Part shown: one piece after another, positions 5,172 through 17,118 of the stretch | How the letters are laid out: each line of letters opens with the position of its first letter | How positions within the stretch are numbered: the first letter of the stretch is position 1 | DNA from: Bacteroidia bacterium | Lineage (GTDB): Bacteria > Bacteroidota > Bacteroidia > Bacteroidales > Rikenellaceae | NCBI GenBank assembly: GCA_025999315.1 | Contig: BNXD01000008.1 | Location: forward strand, 1-43,012 | Direction of reading: 5' to 3' | Length of the DNA: 43,012 bases | Position numbers and translations under genes: made by a program | The notes under the pieces: generated by a model | What the model was told of the DNA's origin: nothing | The model's input: only the letters and a program-made list of their open reading frames with translations | The model's database searches: none

Positions 5172-8163
5172 ATGAAGAGAATATTGCTTGCGGTGTTGGC
5201 CGTGGCCTGTTGCGTGTGGGCGGAGGCTGCCCGCAGGGTCGAAAACATCAATACGGGGTGGAGATTTTCGCTCGCAGACGATGAGCGCGCATCGCTGGCG
5301 GACTTTGACGACAGAGGCTGGCGTATGCTCGATCTGCCTCACGACTGGGCTTACGAAAACGGTTTTGCCGAGCATAACGCCCAGACGGACAAGGGTGGAT
5401 ACGCCTCGGGTGGCGTGGGATGGTATCGACGGAGGCTGACGCTGGCTCCTTCGCAGATGGACGGGCGGCGGATAACCATAGATTTTGATGCGGCATACAT
5501 GAACAGCAGGGTGTGGGTCAACGGGCACATGGTGGGCGAGCGTCCCTACGGATTCATCAGTTTCGGTTACGACATCACCCGGTGGCTGCACGCCGGAGAG
5601 AACACCATCGCCGTGCGTCTGGACAACTCGCGCGAGCCCAGCGCCAGGTGGTACCACCCGTGCGGACTCTACGGCAATGTGACCGTTGGCTTTTTGCCGC
5701 CGACCCATTTTGCCCGGTGGGGGACGACTATCCGCACCGAGGACAACCGGAAAGTGGTGGCGTTCTCCCGTGTGGAGGGTCTCGCGGGCGGAGAGAGTTT
5801 GAGATATGCCCTCATCGATCCCGACGGCAGAATGGTGGCCTCGGTCGAGGCCACCATCGTCGGGGATGGCGGCGGAGCGGTGATGGAGCTGAAAAACGCA
5901 CGGCTCTGGGCGCCGGAGCATCCGTGGCTCTACACGCTTCATGCTGAGCTTCTGCGCGAGGGAGCGGTCGTGGATGCGCAGCAGATCGCCTTCGGAGTGA
6001 GGACGGTGGAGTGGCGGGGGGTTCTGGCTCAACGGGGTCAACGTCAAGATACACGGCGTGTGCGAGCATCTGGCCGGAGGGCCGGTGGGCGGCGCGTGGA
6101 CCGAGGGGCTGATGCGCTGGAAGTTGCAGTTGCTGCGCGATATGGGATGCAACGCCATACGAACGGCCCACAACCCTTCGCTGCCGGTCTTCTACGACCT
6201 GTGCGACAGGATGGGGATCATGGTGCTCGACGAATGTTTCGACGGCTGGAAACAGAAGGCCGAGTGGGACTATGGCCGTCAGGCTTTCGGGCAGTGGTGG
6301 GAGCGCGATCTGTGCGATTTTGTGCGTCGCGACCGCAACCACCCATGCGTCATCGCGTGGAGCGTGGGCAACGAGACGGGGGGAGCCGTGGGCAAAGAGC
6401 TGGTCGAGGTGTGTCATCGGGAAGACCCCACGCGTCTGGTGACCTCGGGCGATTCGGCCCCCGAGGCGATGGACATTGTGGGCATCAACGGCAATAGCGA
6501 GAGGCAGAGCTTCTTTCGCAACTACCATCCCGCAGACAAAGCCTTCATCGGCGCCGAAACTCCGCATACGTGGCAGGTGAGGGGGTTCTACCGCACCCGG
6601 ACGTGGTATCGCGACGGCTATCCCAACGCCCGGCAGGACCCCTTCGAGATACCCGATCTCACGCCGCGGGAGATATTCACCTGCGACTGGATCGATCCCG
6701 CAAAGCGCAAAGTGGCGCGGATGGTCTTCAACTCCTCCTACGACAACGCCACCGTGCGCCTCACCGCTCGCCACAACATCGAGCTGGCCCGCGACCTGCC
6801 GTGGTACTCGGGCAACTTTCGCTGGACGGGATTCGACTATCCGGGCGAGGCGGGATACGTGCATGGCGGATGGCCCTTCCGCGCCTTTATGGGTGGGGCG
6901 ATAGATATGGCCGGATTTGAAAAGGACCTGTTCTACCTCTACCGCAGCCAGTGGACCGACGCCCCGATGGTGCACATACTGCCGCACTGGACTCATCCCC
7001 GCATGGCCCCCGGCACAGAGATACCCGTCTGGGCATACACCACCGGCGACGAGGTGGAGCTGCTGCTCAACGGCCGCTCGCTCGGCGTGCGCAAACGGGG
7101 GCCGCAGTGGAACAGGATGCAGTGTGAATGGATGGCGCCCTGGACCCCTGGAACCATCGAGGCCATAGCCCGCAGGGAGGGCAAGGAGATAGCCCGCGCC
7201 CGGCAGACAACCTCGGAAGAACCTTCGCAACTTGGAGTGGCGAGCAGTGGGGCCGATCTGCCGTTCGACCGTAACACCGTGGCCATCGTAACCATAGAGC
7301 AGCAGGACAGGCACGGCACGCTCTATCCCTACGGCGAGAATCGCATATATACCCGTCTTGTGGGTCCGGCGCGCATGCTCGCCCTCGAGAGCGGCAATCC
7401 GGTGGACGGTCAGGCGGTGGTCGGCGCCGACAGTCGCCGGGCATTTTTCGGCTCTCTGAGGGCTTTTGTCATGGCGACCGGCGCCGAAAAGCCTATCGGT
7501 ATGGTTGTGGCGGCTGTGTGTGGCGACAAAGCGTTGCACATCAGCGATAAAGTATCCATCTGCGTGCGGGAGATCGCCTTGCGCGGCAGCTCGTCAGGGC
7601 GAAAATACCGGATATATTACACCACGGATGGCTCGGCGCCCACCGTACGAAGCAAAAAGTACACGGGCGCCTTCGGCGTAGGGCAACATACCACCGTGAG
7701 GGCTGCCGTATATGACCGGGGAGAGAAGATCATTGAGATGGCCGAGACTTTCGGCCGCGGCGAGGGGTTGTACTGGGGCGAAGAGGGCGGCGGCAGCGAC
7801 GCGATGGGTGAGAGGGCTTCGCGGGCAACGCTCGCCGGATGTTCGGTGCATGTGGCGGACGGGACCGAGTATGTGAGCTTCGATCGCCGCGGCGCATCGA
7901 TAGTCTGGTATCAGGAGAACGACGGTGGCCCACGCACCGCAAATGTATCGTTCCGTTATGTGCAACATGCCCGGCAGGGGAGCGCCTCGCTTCAGTTGTG
8001 GGTCAACGGCAAGCTATGGACGACGCTCGGATTTGAAAATACGGCCGGTGCATGGAGCTCGGTGCAGACCCCGATCGAGATCGTGAGCGGAGCCAACACC
8101 ATCGAGCTGAAAAGCGTCTCGGACGAAGCCCCGGACATAGAGTGGATGAGCGTCTCCAACTGA
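5172..8163 (+). pseudogene. GH2 beta-galactosidase, frameshifted
   Basis: Exported family-2 glycoside hydrolase, about 996 residues when repaired. A signal peptide (MKRILLAVLAVACC...) is followed by the GH2 sugar-binding jelly roll with RWYHPCGLYGNV, an Ig-like domain, the TIM barrel, a DUF4982-like domain and a C-terminal part with a chitobiase-type YYTTDGSAPT strand. The acid/base glutamate is in WSVGNE (E401) and the likely nucleophile in IGAET (E462). The frame breaks in a run of six G at 6016-6021: upstream reads VEWRG and downstream FWLNGVNVKIHGV, which join if one G is removed. Either this is a recent inactivating mutation, an assembly error, or a slippage site. Without correction the product stops at 6497, inside the barrel. 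Family membership is certain; the exact galactoside is not known. Confidence 0.85.
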
Positions 8164-8461: not shown

Positions 8462-8577
8462 TGTCATGCTGAGCGTAGCGGAATGGAATGGAGCGAAGTC
8501 GAAGTATCTCAAAAAAGATCGATTTAACAGCATCGCCGAGACCCTTCGACTTTACTTCGTTCCGCTCAGGGTGACAT
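8462..8577. repeat. TGTCATGCTGAG palindromic repeat
   Basis: The left end TGTCATGCTGAGCG and right end CGCTCAGGGTGACA form the ends of an imperfect palindrome with a short spacer containing GATTTAACAGCAT. Related copies are at 8703-8794, 32197-32378, 35084-35179 and 41486-41619. Confidence 0.75.
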
Positions 8578-8702
8578 GACATAAAAGCCGAACTCAAGTA
8601 ATATGTCATGCTGAGCAAAGTCTTCCCGGGCAGCGTTGCGAGGGCCGCAGACCGCTTGCGGGCTACGAGGATGAAGCCGAAAGCAATCATCTCTACTCTA
8701 CA

Positions 8703-8794
8703 TGTCATGCTGAGCAAAGCGAAGCATCTAAAAATGCTTGATTAAACAGCATGGCCGAGACCCTTCGATCTCTTCGTTCCGCTCAGGGTGACAT
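8703..8794. repeat. TGTCATGCTGAG palindromic repeat
   Basis: Second copy within the composite element, with the same palindromic ends and an internal GATTAAACAGCAT spacer. Half copies begin near 8603 and 8818. Confidence 0.7.
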
Positions 8795-9107
8795 GACATA
8801 AAAGCCGAACTCATAATATGTCATGCTGAGCAAAGTCTTCCCGAGCAGCGCGGGCGTCTTTCTGCCCGCCAGCAGCAGGAGAAAGGCGAAGCCAAAATCT
8901 CATAACCTTTTTCGCGAATAAAATTTAAACAGTTTCTAATGCCAATTCACAAGATTCACGTTAATCTATAATAAACTCTGCTGTCGATATTGTTATCTTG
9001 TGTGCGGCTCACAGAGCCGCGCACAGCCGCAGCCGCACTCCTGTGTTTTTTGGGCGGAGGGCTGCCATCCATCGCGACTGCACCCTTCGCCTGCGACTTC
9101 GGGAGTA

Positions 9108-9588
9108 GGGTCCGACAAAGCATCTCGCCGCCACAATAGACAAAACTGCCCGCATCGAAATGCTTGTGTTTGTCGGCAAAATCCTTGTCCGGGACGAGGT
9201 TCAGGACAGTGGCCCCCATCCTTTCGCTTTTGGCGCTGCGGGCCACGATCAGTTTTTGCCACACGGGGACGCAGCACGCTTTGATCTGTCCATGCTCGGC
9301 ATAACTGTAAAAAGCCCGATAACGACTGTCCGACACGATCGGCACGTTGACCCCGCCAAGATCGTTCTTCGCCGTCGAAGCGCCCTTGCCCCACACCGGG
9401 GTGAACTCCTCGGGCACAAGCGTTCGGCGAGGCGCGCCGCCGCGTGTGGACTGCAGAGCCATCTGATTTTCAAAGAACTCGCGGGCCTCATCGACCGAGA
9501 GTTGCGCGGCAGTCGTGCGGTCGGGGTCGTCGAGGCCATCCCTGACGCAGGCCCAGAGCGCTATCGCCGTCGCCGCGGGTGGCGATGT
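9108..9588 (-). pseudogene. truncated paralogue of the zincin-like lipoprotein N-terminal region
   Basis: The minus strand reads ATAIALWAC, a lipobox-like segment, and then LSVDEAREFFE, TPVWGKG, VNVPIVSD and a domain that aligns with residues about 15-185 of the lipoprotein at 13576-14952 (shared LSVDEAREFFE, TP.W..G, D..FAD and GG segments). The start codon is missing: the frame runs upstream into a stop at 9591-9589, and the upstream DNA is the leader GCAGGAAATGATTATTTTTG used by other genes of the array. The 3' end runs into a dispersed GC-rich repeat near 9100, so the variable C-terminal domain is also absent. I read it as a remnant that lost both ends by rearrangement. Confidence 0.7.
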
Positions 9589-9615
9589 TCAAAAATAATC
9601 ATTTCCTGCATGCCT

Positions 9616-9645
9616 CCCCCCGGCCTCCGCGCGGAGGCCGGGGGG
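9616..9645. repeat. array hairpin 1
   Basis: Perfect 30-bp palindrome with core GGCCTCCGCGCGGAGGCC and C/G-run flanks. It lies between the first small-protein gene and the pseudogene and could terminate transcription or act as a recombination site. Confidence 0.8.
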
Positions 9646-9667
9646 GGGCAAAGGCATAAACAACTTT

Positions 9668-10096
9668 CTACTTCGGTTTGGCATAATACCTTATCGGACC
9701 GCCGCCGAACATCTGCTCACCAGGCTTGGGGCAGTAGATGAGATAGAGTTCGGTGTCGTTGAGCGTTATTATTCTGTAACACGACACCTTGTTTGTATCA
9801 AGGCTTTTTGCAACAATATACTTACCATACTGTACTTGTCCGACTTTCGACTGGACAAAAGTTGTCTCTTCATGGTCGCTCAGATAGAACTGATAAGGAT
9901 CTTCGTCCGTCGTGCCATCTTCGTTATCAATAGCTATGGAGTTATAAGTGGTATTTGTGTACAGGTCAACCAGAGTCATATCGGTCCAAATATATGATTC
10001 CCATCTGTATTGCGCCAAAAGGTCCAGTGTTGTGCGGGCCCCGGCAAACGATGCCGTGCAGCAGGCGAACATGGCGGATAATATTATCTTTTTCAT
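9668..10096 (-). CDS. small exported protein, family A, copy 1
   Basis: Unrecognised 142-residue protein. A signal peptide (MKKIILSAMFACCTASFAGA) is followed by about 120 residues rich in predicted beta strands: QYRWES, DPYQFYLSD, VGQVQYGKYIVAKS, CYRIITLND and TELYLIY. This pattern resembles small lipocalin-like beta-barrels of Bacteroidetes, but that is a guess from strand pattern. It ends in RYYAKPK, shared with the other two family members. Its first 257 coding bases and its leader are identical to those of copy 2 (11328-11756), whereas the C-terminal third differs. The leader GGGAGATTCAAAGTC just before the start codon is shared with copy 2 and with the unrelated gene at 10807. Probably periplasmic or secreted. 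Confidence 0.85.
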   Translation of the reverse strand: MKKIILSAMFACCTASFAGARTTLDLLAQYRWESYIWTDMTLVDLYTNTTYNSIAIDNEDGTTDEDPYQFYLSDHEETTFVQSKVGQVQYGKYIVAKSLDTNKVSCYRIITLNDTELYLIYCPKPGEQMFGGGPIRYYAKPK

Positions 10097-10115
10097 GACT
10101 TTGAATCTCCCTCCA

Positions 10116-10143
10116 CCCCCGGCCTCCGCAAGGGAGGCCGGGG
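10116..10143. repeat. array hairpin 2
   Basis: Inverted repeat GGCCTCC/GGAGGCC with a five-base loop and C/G-run flanks, between family B copy 1 and family A copy 1. Confidence 0.8.
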
Positions 10144-10167
10144 GTGCAGCGGGCTAAACCTTGCGGT

Positions 10168-10716
10168 CTAATTATACAGTTTGTCGAAGTATAAAAATGT
10201 CGTCGATCCCATGAATGTCAGTGCCTGGCAGAGCGGGGGTATGGTATACTTTATGTAAGCCTTGATCTTCTGCTCGAATGTGAACCACTTGTCCGGCGGG
10301 ATGGAGTATAACTTGGGGTGTTTGGGGAACCCCAAAATAACCTCCAGTACATTGCCTGATGTAGTGCTGAAAGTATTTACAACCGTCACCCGTTCATTGC
10401 TGCTTCTCAGACCGGCGATCTCGGCGGCGGTGAATGTCTCCTCAACGGCCTGTCGGTAGAGCTGTTTGTGATCACCTATCGGGATTGCGTAGAATTTGTC
10501 GGACAGTTCATATGGCACCAGAGTGCCGTCTTGATAGCGATATGGCTCGTCGTCATAGGTGTTGTTTATATTGCTTATATCATAAAAATCCCCACTTGAC
10601 TTGACTTTATAGACGACATTGGTCCCCGCTACCGTGTCGTGGTTGGCGTAATGGTCTACCTGTGCTACTGCGTGGAGACACAAAAAACTAAATATAATTA
10701 TAATAATATTTTTCAT
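10168..10716 (-). CDS. small exported protein, family B, copy 1
   Basis: Unrecognised 182-residue protein with a signal peptide ending about AVAQ (residue 19), then VDHYANHDTVAGTNVVYKV. Later features are an acidic DDEPYRYQDG segment, an amphipathic helix EETFTAAEIAGLRSSNE and the family signature YSIPPDKWFTFEQKIKAY near residue 145. It is the most divergent of the three B copies, differing from copies 2 and 3 throughout the middle third. The start at 10716 is chosen because MKN is the conserved N-terminus; an upstream in-frame ATG lies inside the shared leader (TTGATTGGATGGGATAGAATC). That same leader precedes family A copy 3. Function unknown. Confidence 0.85.
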   Translation of the reverse strand: MKNIIIIIFSFLCLHAVAQVDHYANHDTVAGTNVVYKVKSSGDFYDISNINNTYDDEPYRYQDGTLVPYELSDKFYAIPIGDHKQLYRQAVEETFTAAEIAGLRSSNERVTVVNTFSTTSGNVLEVILGFPKHPKLYSIPPDKWFTFEQKIKAYIKYTIPPLCQALTFMGSTTFLYFDKLYN

Positions 10717-10755
10717 GATTCTATCCCATCCAATCAAAAATAATAATTTCCTGAT

Positions 10756-10786
10756 CCCCCCGACCTCTCTTCGCGGAGGCCGGGGG
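10756..10786. repeat. array hairpin 3
   Basis: Imperfect inverted repeat GACCTCTC/GCGGAGGCC with C/G-run flanks, between the family C gene and family B copy 1. It is the most diverged of the seven hairpins. Confidence 0.7.
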
Positions 10787-10806
10787 CAAGAAAGAGTCTC
10801 AATATA

Positions 10807-11256
10807 TTAATAAGGCAACGGCACTTTTTTGAGCGGAACAACCTCTACGACAGTCAATGAAGTAGACGTAAATTCATTGCGATCAATGAAATAGACCTTA
10901 TCGTATGTGCATAACTCCTGATATTTATTCTCTATTTGTGTCCGGCTGGATGTGGGGCTGGCCTCATCCCAGTCCTCGCAGGTGATCGAGTTGAGAAATA
11001 TCAATGGTTTGACCTGATATTCGGGGTGAGACGGATTGTAGCTCGTGTGAATAAACATAGACGAATAATGATCTGTTCCCTTTTTGAATAAGAAATAACA
11101 TCTGTTGGTATATTCATTACCCGTAGGTGTTTTAATCGAGCATTTCACTCCATGATCGCCATTTGCGGTCGAGGTAAAGATTACATATTTGGCAGTTTGT
11201 GCCGACAATATATTCGTTCCCATCAATAAAATTGTCAATATTATTATCTTTTTCAT
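10807..11256 (-). CDS. small exported protein, family C
   Basis: Unrecognised 149-residue protein and the only member of its type in the array. A signal peptide ends about NILSAQ (residue 20). The mature part starts AKYVIFTSTANGDHG and contains strand-like segments (KCSIKTP, CYFLFKKG, VYFIDRNEF, LTVVEVVPL) with four cysteine or aromatic-rich patches but no motif I know. The coding region is more AT-rich than most neighbours. The start at 11256 follows the same leader (GGGAGATTCAAAGTC) as family A copies 1 and 2, although the protein is unrelated to them. Probably periplasmic or secreted; function unknown. Confidence 0.8.
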   Translation of the reverse strand: MKKIIILTILLMGTNILSAQTAKYVIFTSTANGDHGVKCSIKTPTGNEYTNRCYFLFKKGTDHYSSMFIHTSYNPSHPEYQVKPLIFLNSITCEDWDEASPTSSRTQIENKYQELCTYDKVYFIDRNEFTSTSLTVVEVVPLKKVPLPY

Positions 11257-11275
11257 GACTTTGAATCTCCCTCCA

Positions 11276-11304
11276 CCCCCTGCCTCCGCGAGGGGAGGCC
11301 GGGG
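11276..11304. repeat. array hairpin 4
   Basis: Inverted repeat with TGCCTCC on the left and GGAGGCC on the right plus C/G-run flanks, between family A copy 2 and the family C gene. Confidence 0.75.
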
Positions 11305-11327
11305 AGGGCAAATGTTCAAACAACTTT

Positions 11328-11756
11328 CTACTTCGGTTTGGCATAATACTTTGTCGGTGTAAGACCCAATCGTTCTTCACCCGGCCTGGTCCAATAGATA
11401 ACACAAAACTCGTCGTCGTTGAGTGTTATTATCCGGCAACAATTGACCTTACCTGTTTCCAATGATTTTGCAATAATAAATTTGCCATATTGTACCTGTC
11501 CGACTTTCGACTGGACAAAAGTTGTCTCTTCATGGTCGCTCAGATAGAACTGATAAGGATCTTCGTCCGTCGTGCCATCTTCGTTATCAATAGCTATGGA
11601 GTTATAAGTGGTATTTGTGTACAGGTCAACCAGAGTCATATCGGTCCAAATATATGATTCCCATCTGTATTGCGCCAAAAGGTCCAGTGTTGTGCGGGCC
11701 CCGGCAAACGATGCCGTGCAGCAGGCGAACATGGCGGATAATATTATCTTTTTCAT
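11328..11756 (-). CDS. small exported protein, family A, copy 2
   Basis: 142 residues with the same signal peptide and first 85 residues as copy 1 (9668-10096). The DNA is identical from 11497 through 11779 to 9837-10119, then diverges sharply in the C-terminal part (KFIIAKSLETGKVNCC, CVIYWTRPGEERLG). An in-frame ATG upstream at 11828 would add a GC-rich stretch that is really the hairpin and leader, so the start at 11756 is preferred. Function unknown; likely periplasmic or secreted. The sharp identity boundary points to recent gene conversion or partial duplication. Confidence 0.85.
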   Translation of the reverse strand: MKKIILSAMFACCTASFAGARTTLDLLAQYRWESYIWTDMTLVDLYTNTTYNSIAIDNEDGTTDEDPYQFYLSDHEETTFVQSKVGQVQYGKFIIAKSLETGKVNCCRIITLNDDEFCVIYWTRPGEERLGLTPTKYYAKPK

Positions 11757-11775
11757 GACTTTGAATCTCCCTCCA

Positions 11776-11804
11776 CCCCTGGCCTCCGCGAGGGAGGCCG
11801 GGGG
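11776..11804. repeat. array hairpin 5
   Basis: Inverted repeat GGCCTCC/GGAGGCC with a short GCGAG-type loop and C/G flanks, between family A copies 3 and 2. Confidence 0.8.
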
Positions 11805-11833
11805 CCGCTTATGCCCGTGGGGCGGCATTAATT

Positions 11834-12262
11834 CTACTTCGGTTTGGCATAATACCTTGTCGGCCCTCCACCTACCATCTGTTCACCAGGTCTATTCCAA
11901 TATATAATATAAAGCTCGGTGTCATTAAGGGTTATTATCCGATAACAAGACACTTTGCCATTATCCAGACTCTTTGCAATAATATAACTGCCATATTGCA
12001 CCTGTCCGACTTTCGACTGGTCGAATGTCCACCCCTCGGTGTTGCTTAGGTAGAACTGATAAGGGTCTTCGTCTGTTGAACTGTCTTCGTTGTCGATTGC
12101 GAGGGTGTTATAAGTAGTATTTGTGAATAATTTGACCATAGTCATGTCGTGTCGATCTTGAAACTCCCACCTGTATTGCTTCAGGAGGTCCAGTGTCGTG
12201 CGGGCCCCGGCGAACGATGCCGTACAGCAGGCGAAGATGGCGGATAATATTATCTTTTTCAT
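11834..12262 (-). CDS. small exported protein, family A, copy 3
   Basis: 142 residues, same signal peptide as copies 1 and 2 with one substitution (AIF for AMF). The mature part is diverged (KQYRWEFQDRHDMT, FYLSNTEGWTFDQSKVGQ) but keeps the RYYAKPK end and the TELYIIY strand. Unlike the other two A copies its leader is of the second type, ATTATTTTTGATTGGATGGG, the same as family B copy 1. The gene family and the leader family are therefore not inherited together. Function unknown. Confidence 0.85.
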   Translation of the reverse strand: MKKIILSAIFACCTASFAGARTTLDLLKQYRWEFQDRHDMTMVKLFTNTTYNTLAIDNEDSSTDEDPYQFYLSNTEGWTFDQSKVGQVQYGSYIIAKSLDNGKVSCYRIITLNDTELYIIYWNRPGEQMVGGGPTRYYAKPK

Positions 12263-12303
12263 GATTCTATCCCATCCAATCAAAAATAATCATTTCCTGC
12301 ATG

Positions 12304-12332
12304 CCCCCGGCCTCCCTCGCGGAGGCCGGGGG
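12304..12332. repeat. array hairpin 6
   Basis: Inverted repeat GGCCTCC/GGAGGCC with C/G flanks between family B copy 2 and family A copy 3. A second half-hairpin (GGAGGCCGGGGGGG) lies at 12361-12374, suggesting a partly deleted extra unit. Confidence 0.8.
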
Positions 12333-12385
12333 TGGGGAGTAGCGGTCATTATTGAAAACGGAGGCCGGGGGGGCTTACCTTGCGA

Positions 12386-12928
12386 CTAATTATACAGTTT
12401 GTCGAAGTACAGTGTACCCGTCGACACCATGAATGTCAACACTTGACTGCGCGGAGGTATAGTGTATTTCAGATATGTCTTGATCTTTTGCTCGAAAGCG
12501 AACCACTTGTCCGGCGGGATGGAATATAACTTCGGATGCTTTTTAAACATGAAGTCTACCTCCATTATGTCGCCCGACATATCGAATGCGTCTGAAATTA
12601 TTACCTTTTCATTGCTACTTCGCAGGTTGGCGATCTCGGCGGCGGTGAATGACTCTTCGAGAGCTTGCCGATATATTTGTTTTAGATTCCCTATCGGATC
12701 GGCATAATATATTTGGTCATTCGTCACCGGAGTGCCGTTTTGGAAACGATAGCCCTGCCCGAAATGAGAGTTGTTTATGTCGCCTATGACATAAGTGGTG
12801 CCAAGGTCCTCGACTTTATAGACGACATTGGTCCCGGCCACCGTGTCGTGGTTGGCATAATAATCAACCTGTGCCGCAACTCCGACGCACAACAGGCTGA
12901 ATATGGCGATGATAATAATATTTTTCAT
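12386..12928 (-). CDS. small exported protein, family B, copy 2
   Basis: 180 residues with a signal peptide ending about GVAAQ (residue 19) and mature start VDYYANHDTVAGTNVVYKVEDLG. It shares long stretches with copy 3 (13022-13561): GDINNSHFGQGYRFQNGTPV, the SGDIMEVDFMFKKHPKLYS block and the IPPDKWFAFEQKI signature. Differences cluster in short blocks (TTYVIG/TSYVIG, KQIYRQALEES/KQLFRQAVEET, STGTLYFDKLYN/ATRILDFNELYN), a mosaic pattern rather than even drift. Its leader is a diverged form of the ATTATTTTTGAT type. Function unknown; probably periplasmic or secreted. Confidence 0.85.
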   Translation of the reverse strand: MKNIIIIAIFSLLCVGVAAQVDYYANHDTVAGTNVVYKVEDLGTTYVIGDINNSHFGQGYRFQNGTPVTNDQIYYADPIGNLKQIYRQALEESFTAAEIANLRSSNEKVIISDAFDMSGDIMEVDFMFKKHPKLYSIPPDKWFAFEQKIKTYLKYTIPPRSQVLTFMVSTGTLYFDKLYN

Positions 12929-12977
12929 GATTCGATGTTATTCCATCAAAAATAATCATTTCCTGCAAGAAAAACAA

Positions 12978-13007
12978 CCCCCGGTCTCCACGTTGGAGGC
13001 CGGGGGG
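12978..13007. repeat. array hairpin 7
   Basis: Inverted repeat GGTCTCCA/TGGAGGCC with C/G flanks between family B copies 3 and 2. This is the first hairpin in the direction of transcription. Confidence 0.75.
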
Positions 13008-13021
13008 GCTTACCTTGCAGT

Positions 13022-13561
13022 CTAATTATACAATTCGTTAAAGTCCAGTATCCTCGTCGCCACCATGAATGTCAACACCTGACTGCGCGGAGGTATAGTG
13101 TATTTTATATACGCCCTGATCTTTTGCTCGAAAGCGAACCACTTGTCCGGCGGGATGGAATATAACTTCGGATGCTTTTTAAACATGAAGTCTACCTCCA
13201 TTATGTCGCCCGACATATCGAATGCGTCTGAAATCATTACCTCTTCATTGCTGCTTCTAAAGCTTGCGATCTCAGCGGCGGTGAATGTCTCCTCTACTGC
13301 TTGCCGGAACAGCTGTTTTGGATTTCCTATCGGATTGGCATAATATATTTGGTCATTCTCCACCGGAGTGCCGTTTTGGAAACGATAGCCCTGCCCGAAA
13401 TGAGAGTTGTTTATGTCGCCTATGACATAAGAAGTGCCAAGGTCCTCGACTTTATAGACGACATTGGTCCCGGCCACCGTGTCGTGGTTGGCATAATGGT
13501 CTACCTGTGCTATGGCATTGAGAGACAGGAAGCTCAGTGTGATTGCAATTGTATTTTTCAT
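13022..13561 (-). CDS. small exported protein, family B, copy 3
   Basis: 179 residues with a signal peptide ending about NAIAQ (residue 19), then VDHYANHDTVAGTNVVYKVEDLG and the IPPDKWFAFEQKI signature near residue 145. It starts only 14 bases after the stop codon of the zincin-like lipoprotein gene, with no hairpin between, so the two are probably co-transcribed and this copy is the best candidate for a dedicated partner of that lipoprotein. Function unknown; an inhibitor, immunity or accessory role would be guesswork based on position. Confidence 0.85.
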   Translation of the reverse strand: MKNTIAITLSFLSLNAIAQVDHYANHDTVAGTNVVYKVEDLGTSYVIGDINNSHFGQGYRFQNGTPVENDQIYYANPIGNPKQLFRQAVEETFTAAEIASFRSSNEEVMISDAFDMSGDIMEVDFMFKKHPKLYSIPPDKWFAFEQKIRAYIKYTIPPRSQVLTFMVATRILDFNELYN

Positions 13562-13575
13562 GACGTTTTAATTTT

Positions 13576-14952
13576 TTATAAACAACCTGCAAGAAGCGCG
13601 TTGAGATTGGGTGTGCCGAAACTTGCGTAAGAGGCATACGAGGCGTTATCCAATATGGTTTTATTATACCCCGCCATGCTCAGCGAAGTCATGGCGTGCT
13701 GCCATGTGTCCGCGGACGGAGTTCTGGCAAACCGCATAAATTCTTTCCAACTGTCTCCATATCTGTTCTCTAATTTGTCGCCGTTTCGATTGGCAAAATC
13801 GATCTTGGCCATCTTTACCTCTATCTCTTTGTTTACTTCCGATGAGTTATAGTGTCCCTGCTGATAGACGTGAAACACCTCTTCCAGCAACGTATAATCC
13901 TCTGACGGACCATCGTAGACCACGATCGTATTGGCATTCCCATCAAAGTATCCATTGCCTTGAGGCGGATTTGGGTTATCGGGGTCGACAATGATATACT
14001 GTATGCTGTTATTCGTCGAATTGAAGTACGTCATAAGCTGGGCGCCCACGCAGTCCGCAGAGATTTTATCTATCGCTTCCTGCAGCCTTCCGTAGTCTGG
14101 ACCAACGGGGCCATCGCCCTCCTCCTCCTCTTCCTGGTACTCCTCTTCCTCAATTTCATCTTCAATCCAGTTGTAGGTACAGAGATATTCCATGTTGTAG
14201 AAATAATAACATTCTTCACCCTCAACTTCAAAGCCTTCGCCAAACGATATACTCCATTGGCTACAATTTACATCTTCAAAATAATAAGATTCGCATTCTA
14301 TTTCCCAATATCCACCGCTGCGCGTAGCGGGCATTCCGGGCAGGTTGGGTTCCAGTTCCATATCGCTCGTCTTGATCATCCCGACGTCCGCTCCATTTCG
14401 CAGTATCCTGCCGCCCAGCAACTTGCCCGACAGATCACGGTAGATCACCATGCCCGAGAACTCTTTCATATCTGCAAAGGTGATCTTGTCGGGATTGCCG
14501 TGGCGTCGCAGATACTTGATGTCGGCCGTATACGAGACCACAAAATAGTCTATCCCGCCCTCCGCTGTTTTGCGCGCAAGCATCCTGTAGGCGGTATTTC
14601 TAAGTCTGGTGGCCGAATTGTCCGCCGATGGATCCTTAACGATCTGGATGCCCATGACCGGGAGATTAAAGGGCACTTCGACCATCGGCACACCGTCTAC
14701 GTAGAAACTGCACCCCCTGTTCCAAAGCGGAGTAACGACCGGCATCTCGCCGCCTCGTGTCCGAATGTCGTCCGAATGCGCCACGGTGAACTCTGTTACA
14801 AATCCTTCAAAGAACTCGCGAGCCTCATCGACACTCAACGTGTTCGAGGCGTACTTGCCGCTGTGCGAATCCACAGAATCCTTCATACATGCGTACAAAA
14901 CCACAACCATCGCCGCGGCAACACACATGTAAAGATAATATAATTTTTTCAT
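13576..14952 (-). CDS. lipoprotein with degenerate zincin-like C-terminal domain
   Basis: 458-residue exported protein heading the small-protein array. A hydrophobic N-terminus ends in LYAC (Cys22), a plausible though imperfect lipobox. Residues about 39-200 (LSVDEAREFFE, TPLWNRG, RNTAYRMLARK, FADMKEFSGMVIYRD) form a region repeated in the broken gene at 9108-9588. An acidic linker near residues 255-275 consists mostly of Glu. The C-terminal domain has the segment TLLEEVFHVYQQ (E357, E358, H361, Q364) followed by EIEVK (376-380). That resembles zincin-like peptidase helices, but with Glu in place of the first His of HExxH. It may bind metal differently or be inactive. Modular secreted-effector proteins show such a conserved front and variable tail, but no delivery system is visible here. 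Confidence 0.8.
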   Translation of the reverse strand: MKKLYYLYMCVAAAMVVVLYACMKDSVDSHSGKYASNTLSVDEAREFFEGFVTEFTVAHSDDIRTRGGEMPVVTPLWNRGCSFYVDGVPMVEVPFNLPVMGIQIVKDPSADNSATRLRNTAYRMLARKTAEGGIDYFVVSYTADIKYLRRHGNPDKITFADMKEFSGMVIYRDLSGKLLGGRILRNGADVGMIKTSDMELEPNLPGMPATRSGGYWEIECESYYFEDVNCSQWSISFGEGFEVEGEECYYFYNMEYLCTYNWIEDEIEEEEYQEEEEEGDGPVGPDYGRLQEAIDKISADCVGAQLMTYFNSTNNSIQYIIVDPDNPNPPQGNGYFDGNANTIVVYDGPSEDYTLLEEVFHVYQQGHYNSSEVNKEIEVKMAKIDFANRNGDKLENRYGDSWKEFMRFARTPSADTWQHAMTSLSMAGYNKTILDNASYASYASFGTPNLNALLAGCL

Positions 14953-15972: not shown

Positions 15973-17118
15973 CTATTTTTTAGTGGATGACTGTACTGCC
16001 GGGGTTTTGGCCGGAGCAGTGGAGCCCGTCGGGGCTGAGTTTTTTGCTGGGAGGCTCGCCGGGGTTTTGGCGGCGGCCGGAGTTGGCGCTGCGGCCGCCG
16101 TCCTGGCGGCTTTTTGGGCGCGGTAGTTCCTGTTGGCCTCCATCTTGCGGGCCTGGTCGGGGGAGAGAACCTCCCGGAACCTGGTCTGATAGCGGGCGTC
16201 GATCTGCTCGATGCGAGCCTTACGCTCGGGCTGGGGCAATTTGCTGTGCACCACCTTGTAACGTTCGATGGCACGAGCGTTCTGCAGCTCCTTGTAGCGT
16301 TTGATCTGTTCGGGGCTCATGCCGTAGAGCCCTTTCATCCGGCGGTCGAAATTGCCTGCCTGTTTCCTCTCCCACAGTGCATAACGCTGCTCGCCGAGCA
16401 AATTGCGCACCCTGTCTTTGTGTGCCGTGTTGATCTTCTTTTGCTCCTGTGCGGCCTGTTTTCCGGGCAACTGCCGGGCGGCGAGCTCTTTGAGTTGTTT
16501 CTGATGCAGGTCGGTGATGACATTCATACGCCGCGACTGCTCGTAGGTGAGATGCAGCTGCCGATTCTGTTTGCTGATCATGCGGTTTTTGGCCATCCGG
16601 TTCTTGTACATCGTCGACGATCTCTGCTCGCCGACTACCTTTGCCAACTCGTCGCGACGCGCTTTCTTTGCCGCGTCGACCAACTCGATCTTCCTGCCCT
16701 GGGGGATGTCGCTGTTTTTGATCGCCCTGATCCTCGTCTTTTCGTTGTCGTGCGCTTTCTTACCTGCCGTGGCAACTGTCCCACGATTTTTTGTCCACAA
16801 GGCAAACTGTTCGGGGGTGAGAACGGTCGAGACATTTTGTTTGAACTGTCGTCTGACCGCATCTGTTTTTGCTTTGCGCTCTTTGGGCGAGGTAACGGTG
16901 CGGTTGATCTCACGGAACGCCCGGGCCTGCTCGGCAAAAAAGCGGTCAAACTGCTGCAACTGCTGCTGCGTCAGGCCATACTTTGCGGTGAGCGTGGCGT
17001 GTAGCTCGCTGCGTTTTTGCTCTTTGGGTTTGGAATTTCGGGCCGCTCCACTTGCGCCGGATGCGGACAACAGGGAGAGCGCAAAAGTCGTCAATAATAG
17101 CAGGTTAAGTCGTCTCAT
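15973..17118 (-). CDS. basic exported protein with three Spy/CpxP-like repeats
   Basis: 381 residues with a signal peptide (MRRLNLLLLTTFALSLLSASGASG). The mature protein is very basic and helical, with three tandem modules of the LTxxQ type. Module 1 is residues about 40-110 (YGLTQQQLQQFDRFF ... VLTPEQFALW), module 2 about 185-255 (HLTYEQSRRMN ... LLGEQRYALWE) and module 3 about 262-330 (YGMSPEQIKRYKE ... VLSPDQARKME). The tail (about 335-381) is Ala/Pro/Lys/Thr-rich and low-complexity. Spy and CpxP are periplasmic stress chaperones that use the same paired-helix motif. The match is at the level of motif and composition, so a chaperone or envelope-stress role is an inference. It stands alone between repeats and a pseudogene. 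Confidence 0.85.
   Translation of the reverse strand: MRRLNLLLLTTFALSLLSASGASGAARNSKPKEQKRSELHATLTAKYGLTQQQLQQFDRFFAEQARAFREINRTVTSPKERKAKTDAVRRQFKQNVSTVLTPEQFALWTKNRGTVATAGKKAHDNEKTRIRAIKNSDIPQGRKIELVDAAKKARRDELAKVVGEQRSSTMYKNRMAKNRMISKQNRQLHLTYEQSRRMNVITDLHQKQLKELAARQLPGKQAAQEQKKINTAHKDRVRNLLGEQRYALWERKQAGNFDRRMKGLYGMSPEQIKRYKELQNARAIERYKVVHSKLPQPERKARIEQIDARYQTRFREVLSPDQARKMEANRNYRAQKAARTAAAAPTPAAAKTPASLPAKNSAPTGSTAPAKTPAVQSSTKK

Follow-up and report, generated by a model that had tools for sequence, protein, structure and literature searches.

A lipoprotein gene and its row of small exported genes

The window analysed here is the entire contig C8 (43,012 bases) of a Bacteroidia bacterium, from a 1.83-Mb assembly that comprises 227 contigs and is 54.6% complete. 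Eight open reading frames (ORFs) on the minus strand, at the positions given in an earlier note on this DNA, form the locus of interest: a lipoprotein gene, hereafter LP (13576..14952, 458 aa), followed by the small genes B3, B2, A3, A2, C, B1 and A1. B3 (13022..13561) lies 14 nt behind LP and, like B2 (12386..12928) and B1 (10168..10716), encodes an exported DUF5043-type protein. Family A consists of A3 (11834..12262), A2 (11328..11756) and A1 (9668..10096), and family C of the exported protein C (10807..11256). Over their mature parts, B2 and B3 are 86% identical and B1 is 64% identical to each; the values in family A are 84% (A1/A2), 77% (A1/A3) and 71% (A2/A3), and the best match between families reached only E 0.045 over 14–15 residues. 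All seven small proteins have a signal-peptide-like start without a lipobox, as judged by eye and with a regular expression (for A3, A2, C and B1, the signal-peptide ATG was chosen over the first start codon). The earlier description of seven small exported proteins in three families behind a lipoprotein is therefore borne out by ORF positions, identities and signal-like starts. The row reads S0 S0 S2 S2 S3 S0 S2 in sequence clusters; genes of different families stand in tandem with no toxin gene between them, as in a heterogeneous polyimmunity locus.

Between each small gene and the next, six times in all, lies a GC-rich hairpin, at 12977..13009 (B3/B2), 12303..12335 (B2/A3), 11775..11807 (A3/A2), 11275..11307 (A2/C), 10756..10786 (C/B1) and 10115..10147 (B1/A1), and a seventh follows A1 at 9616..9648, which agrees with the earlier observation of one hairpin between most neighbours. 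No hairpin was found in the gap between LP and B3, which sets this pair apart from the rest of the array. The pattern search of the window gave two further chance matches, at 5837 and 16135. In the whole source assembly, the exact pattern occurs at 11 sites on contigs C6, C8, C30 and C50, all inside LP arrays or at most 0.5 kb from them, and the backwards control gave 0 sites; allowing two mismatches in a fixed-spacer pattern brought in one more place on C23 and one on C12, next to different exported genes.

Beyond A1 lies a decayed fragment of an LP-type gene (homologous stretch 9129..9578, minus strand) that lacks the gene start and the C-terminal domain. Over 342 nt it shares 98% identity with the beginning of an LP gene at the end of contig C80, and over 132 nt it shares 99% identity with the partial LP gene that opens C50; these two pieces are probably parts of one gene. 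The note had taken this fragment for a decayed copy of the N-terminal region of the window's lipoprotein: it is an LP-derived remnant, but of another paralogue, as the match to the LP of the window spans 27 nt. Such pseudogene remnants, or displaced toxin cassettes, are among the marks of polymorphic toxin loci.

Domain structure and predicted location of the lipoprotein

LP begins with a signal peptide and the lipobox-like sequence VLYAC (Cys22, then MKDSVDS), which together with a conserved N-terminal domain take up about residues 1–195 (14368..14952, minus strand). AlphaFold models residues 71–190 of this domain with a predicted local distance difference test (pLDDT) score of 78–90 in ten-residue blocks, dipping to 66–68 at 101–120, and a Pfam scan of 21 LP proteins found no model above cut-off over it. 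An acidic, low-complexity linker (14101..14367, minus strand; about residues 196–284; pLDDT < 50) leads to the C-domain (13576..14100, minus strand), in which E358, H361, Q364, E376 and E378 are invariant or nearly so in alignment A7 and similarly conserved in A4 and A5. In the motif EEVFH (residues 357–361; 13870..13884, minus strand), Glu replaces the first His of HExxH, and the C-domain does not show the HExxH and third ligand of zincin metallopeptidases; a fold check returned weak gluzincin matches.

The predicted lipidation Cys stands in CMKDS. A pattern search gave 41 lipobox-like starts, of which 18 have C-X-[KR]-[DE], two acidic residues not always being present. For Capnocytophaga, PMC5080379 gives C-X-K-(D/E)2-X as the optimal lipoprotein export signal. 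Judged from its sequence, the lipobox and C-X-K-D start suggest that LP is an outer-membrane lipoprotein, possibly surface-exposed. One LP of the same assembly (L016:9140-10906, on C30) lacks a conventional start codon where one is expected; its earliest candidate is a GTG immediately ahead of the lipobox.

C-domain classes and their downstream partners

A profile of the N-domain matched 41 of 250 family genomes and, in the loci fetched for comparison, 56 ORFs, fragments included. The C-domains of these loci (n = 49, two of them orphans) fell into 11 clusters, so that one constant N-terminal region carries many unrelated C-domains; the conserved front and variable tail proposed for the window's lipoprotein recur in other genomes. 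The first downstream gene is specific to the class of the C-domain, and C-domain and partner co-diverge more tightly than N-domain and partner. Profiles from outside the genome place the three families of the window in separate toxin classes, one each for B, A and C. Taken together, these data favour a polymorphic lipoprotein toxin followed by a mixed immunity array, with a probability of about 0.8, and they bear out the effector-with-immunity interpretation of the earlier note. LP thus looks like a member of a swappable antibacterial toxin family, and the row of small genes appears to match the partners of three toxin types. Two groups weigh against this reading: CTD3 and part of the C39-like class depart from the pairing of downstream gene and C-domain.

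Family B alone is the predicted partner of the window's LP, with B3 as its cognate immunity protein. The Pfam match of this family to DUF5043 (PF16446) stays below the cut-off of 25 (B2, 16.2 bits; B1, 13.5 bits; B3, no match); scores of 67.8–101.3 bits were reached by three further members of cluster S0. In Bacteroides muris, a DUF5043 protein (145.7 bits) lies directly behind the same kind of C-domain as that of LP. The outcome that the earlier note named as refuting, with unrelated housekeeping genes in relatives or structures of characterised proteins unconnected to the lipoprotein, was not observed. Family A follows C39-like toxins elsewhere, and A1, A2 and A3 are predicted orphan immunity proteins. 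We infer that the small genes of the window are immunity genes, and the row would most likely protect the cell against its own toxin and those of its neighbours.

The tandem-duplicated exported proteins behind a surface-type lipoprotein, and hairpin repeats that could serve recombination, would also suit a variable surface system, as the earlier note had considered, here one of antigens or adhesins whose exported subunits are duplicated. We regard this as the least probable explanation, because antigenic variation does not predict that the partner family tracks the C-domain class. The fold of family B is likewise that of the solved DUF5043 member (4QE0, Bacteroides uniformis BACUNI_01052), with TonB C-terminal domains as the next and much weaker matches.

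Because the partners are exported, the toxin domains would act outside the cytoplasm. The LP of one relative carries an M23 domain of the peptidoglycan-hydrolase type, and M23 and CHAP domains act outside the cytoplasm. Most C-domains are peptidase-like, which would also fit proteases, secreted or displayed at the surface, that serve nutrition or contact with a host and have inhibitors encoded next to them to guard the producer's periplasm. The C10 proteases of Bacteroidales and their Spi-type inhibitors provide the model for such pairs, and the source genome itself has a Peptidase_C10/Inhibitor_I69 lipoprotein (I69 below cut-off) in a similar layout. Nutritional proteases would not be expected to swap classes on one constant domain or to carry inhibitor genes for classes that were not detected in the assembly, and the M23 domain also speaks against them; we consider this explanation unlikely.

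In genus g8, four loci (L041, L045, L046 and L053) have an LP with a ZnPLC-like C-domain (ALHPVLDTY), and nothing behind it is convincing as a small exported gene; these lipoproteins may differ in their kind of immunity or in their target.

Relation to known systems

For SitA/SitI, MafB, Microscilla-N, the Amoebophilus proteins APD1 and APD2, and the cystatin-like toxins, the comparisons below rest on their published descriptions. The predicted LP toxin system shares with SitA/SitI of Myxococcus xanthus a lipoprotein toxin with a constant N-part and variable C-part and a downstream immunity gene (PMC5562445). In that system, two SitA C-domains proved toxic inside the cytoplasm, and TraA-dependent outer-membrane exchange serves for transfer (PMC5562445), whereas the LP partners are exported and the C-domains are hydrolase-like. 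A constant N-domain with a signal peptide and a variable C-domain also characterize MafB of Neisseria, Microscilla-N and APD1/APD2, the APD N-domain standing behind a lipobox (PMC3482391); these belong to other lineages, and APD is predicted to be host-directed (PMC3482391). The surface-anchored Amoebophilus effectors, with conserved N-termini and variable C-termini (PMC3482391), lend some plausibility to the idea that the lipoproteins act on a eukaryotic host or a grazing protist, with the small proteins merely protecting the producer. Partner-family genes whose toxin classes did not turn up in the assembly suit bacterial targets better than a host, and we consider a host-directed role very improbable.

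For the antibacterial toxin reading, further parallels are polymorphic toxins with a lipobox and a cystatin-like domain, which mostly have other C-domains and whose commonest partner is BamE-like and membrane-anchored (PMC12419801). Polyimmunity loci (PMC3482391) and the acquired interbacterial defence arrays of Bacteroidales (PMC13288982, PMC12247911, PMC10470768) share tandem cognate or orphan immunity genes that presumably protect against neighbours. The Bacteroidales arrays are described against effectors of the type VI secretion system (T6SS), whereas all seven proteins of the window array are predicted to be exported and stand behind the putative lipoprotein toxin. According to Zhang et al. 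2012 (PMC3482391), all but a few of the immunity proteins then known are cytoplasmic, which makes the exported partners of LP unusual. Lipoprotein polymorphic toxins (SitA), toxins with lipobox N-domains (APD1/2; cystatin-like) and polyimmunity loci are thus already known; our literature search found nothing on the LP family and no paper naming DUF5043.

If correct, the toxin–immunity reading would give a function to DUF5043 and several unnamed exported-protein families, add a lipoprotein-borne family to the T6SS and BSAP toxins of Bacteroidales, and provide examples of immunity arrays with an extracytoplasmic site of action. For each C-domain, the table of pairings would then predict the small protein that confers protection. 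Two features, the Glu-for-His change in the conserved zincin motif and the linkage of the Wzy and transglutaminase genes described below, raise questions of catalysis and delivery.

Linked genes and neighbourhood

Upstream of LP lies a gene for an exported helical protein (15973..17118, minus strand), a possible accessory that we take to be LTxxQ-like from its motif; Pfam gave only a sub-threshold match (Metal_resist, 6.9e-4). Its family also occurs upstream of LP on C6, C80 and C30 (a 184-aa piece), in short fragments on C12 and C23, and in L081, from another taxonomic family (L017:8056-9204; L018:3606-4634; L081:2103-3194). Among 64 searched sequences, mostly LP loci, a transglutaminase-like lipoprotein was found in 7 and a Wzy_C-TPR protein in 11, across several families; the former assignment rests on Transglut_core (2.8e-7) in L081 and, for the others, on homology to the L081 protein. 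One or both genes occur at L081:241-2112, L081:14629-16122, L024:8798-12441, L085:5480-8988 and L017:1914-3725, and in L020, L036, L034, L031, L040 and L083. The transglutaminase-like lipoprotein is over-represented among the 41 LP genomes: of the 250 genomes, 27 have it, 16 of them with LP (Fisher p 6e-8, uncorrected for relatedness). It is missing from the other 25 LP genomes, and in 11 genomes it occurs with no LP detected.

These two genes could possibly serve maturation or delivery. More tentatively, and less likely than not, the whole may be a T6SS-independent antibacterial weapon widespread in Bacteroidales, in which surface lipoprotein toxins carry interchangeable envelope-hydrolysing domains, exported immunity proteins (including DUF5043) sit in hairpin-bounded cassettes, and a transglutaminase-like lipoprotein, an O-antigen-ligase/TPR protein and an LTxxQ-type periplasmic protein mature the toxins or hand them over.

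The array neighbours are ordinary (10 ORFs scanned): GH2 and GH97 glycoside hydrolases, sulfatases and an S41 peptidase. Downstream of the array, at 8511-8850, the window holds near-identical repeats about 215 nt apart (families D12, D14 and D15). On C23, a lone gene for an exported 153-aa protein (L025:7225-7686) has an array-type hairpin on one side and a shortened LTxxQ gene on the other, and is possibly an immunity gene left without its toxin. On C12, a Peptidase_C10 lipoprotein (L026:5328-7688), whose Spi-like I69 region scores below threshold, has a small lipoprotein and an array-type hairpin behind it and a short LTxxQ piece in front, an LP-like layout around another protease.
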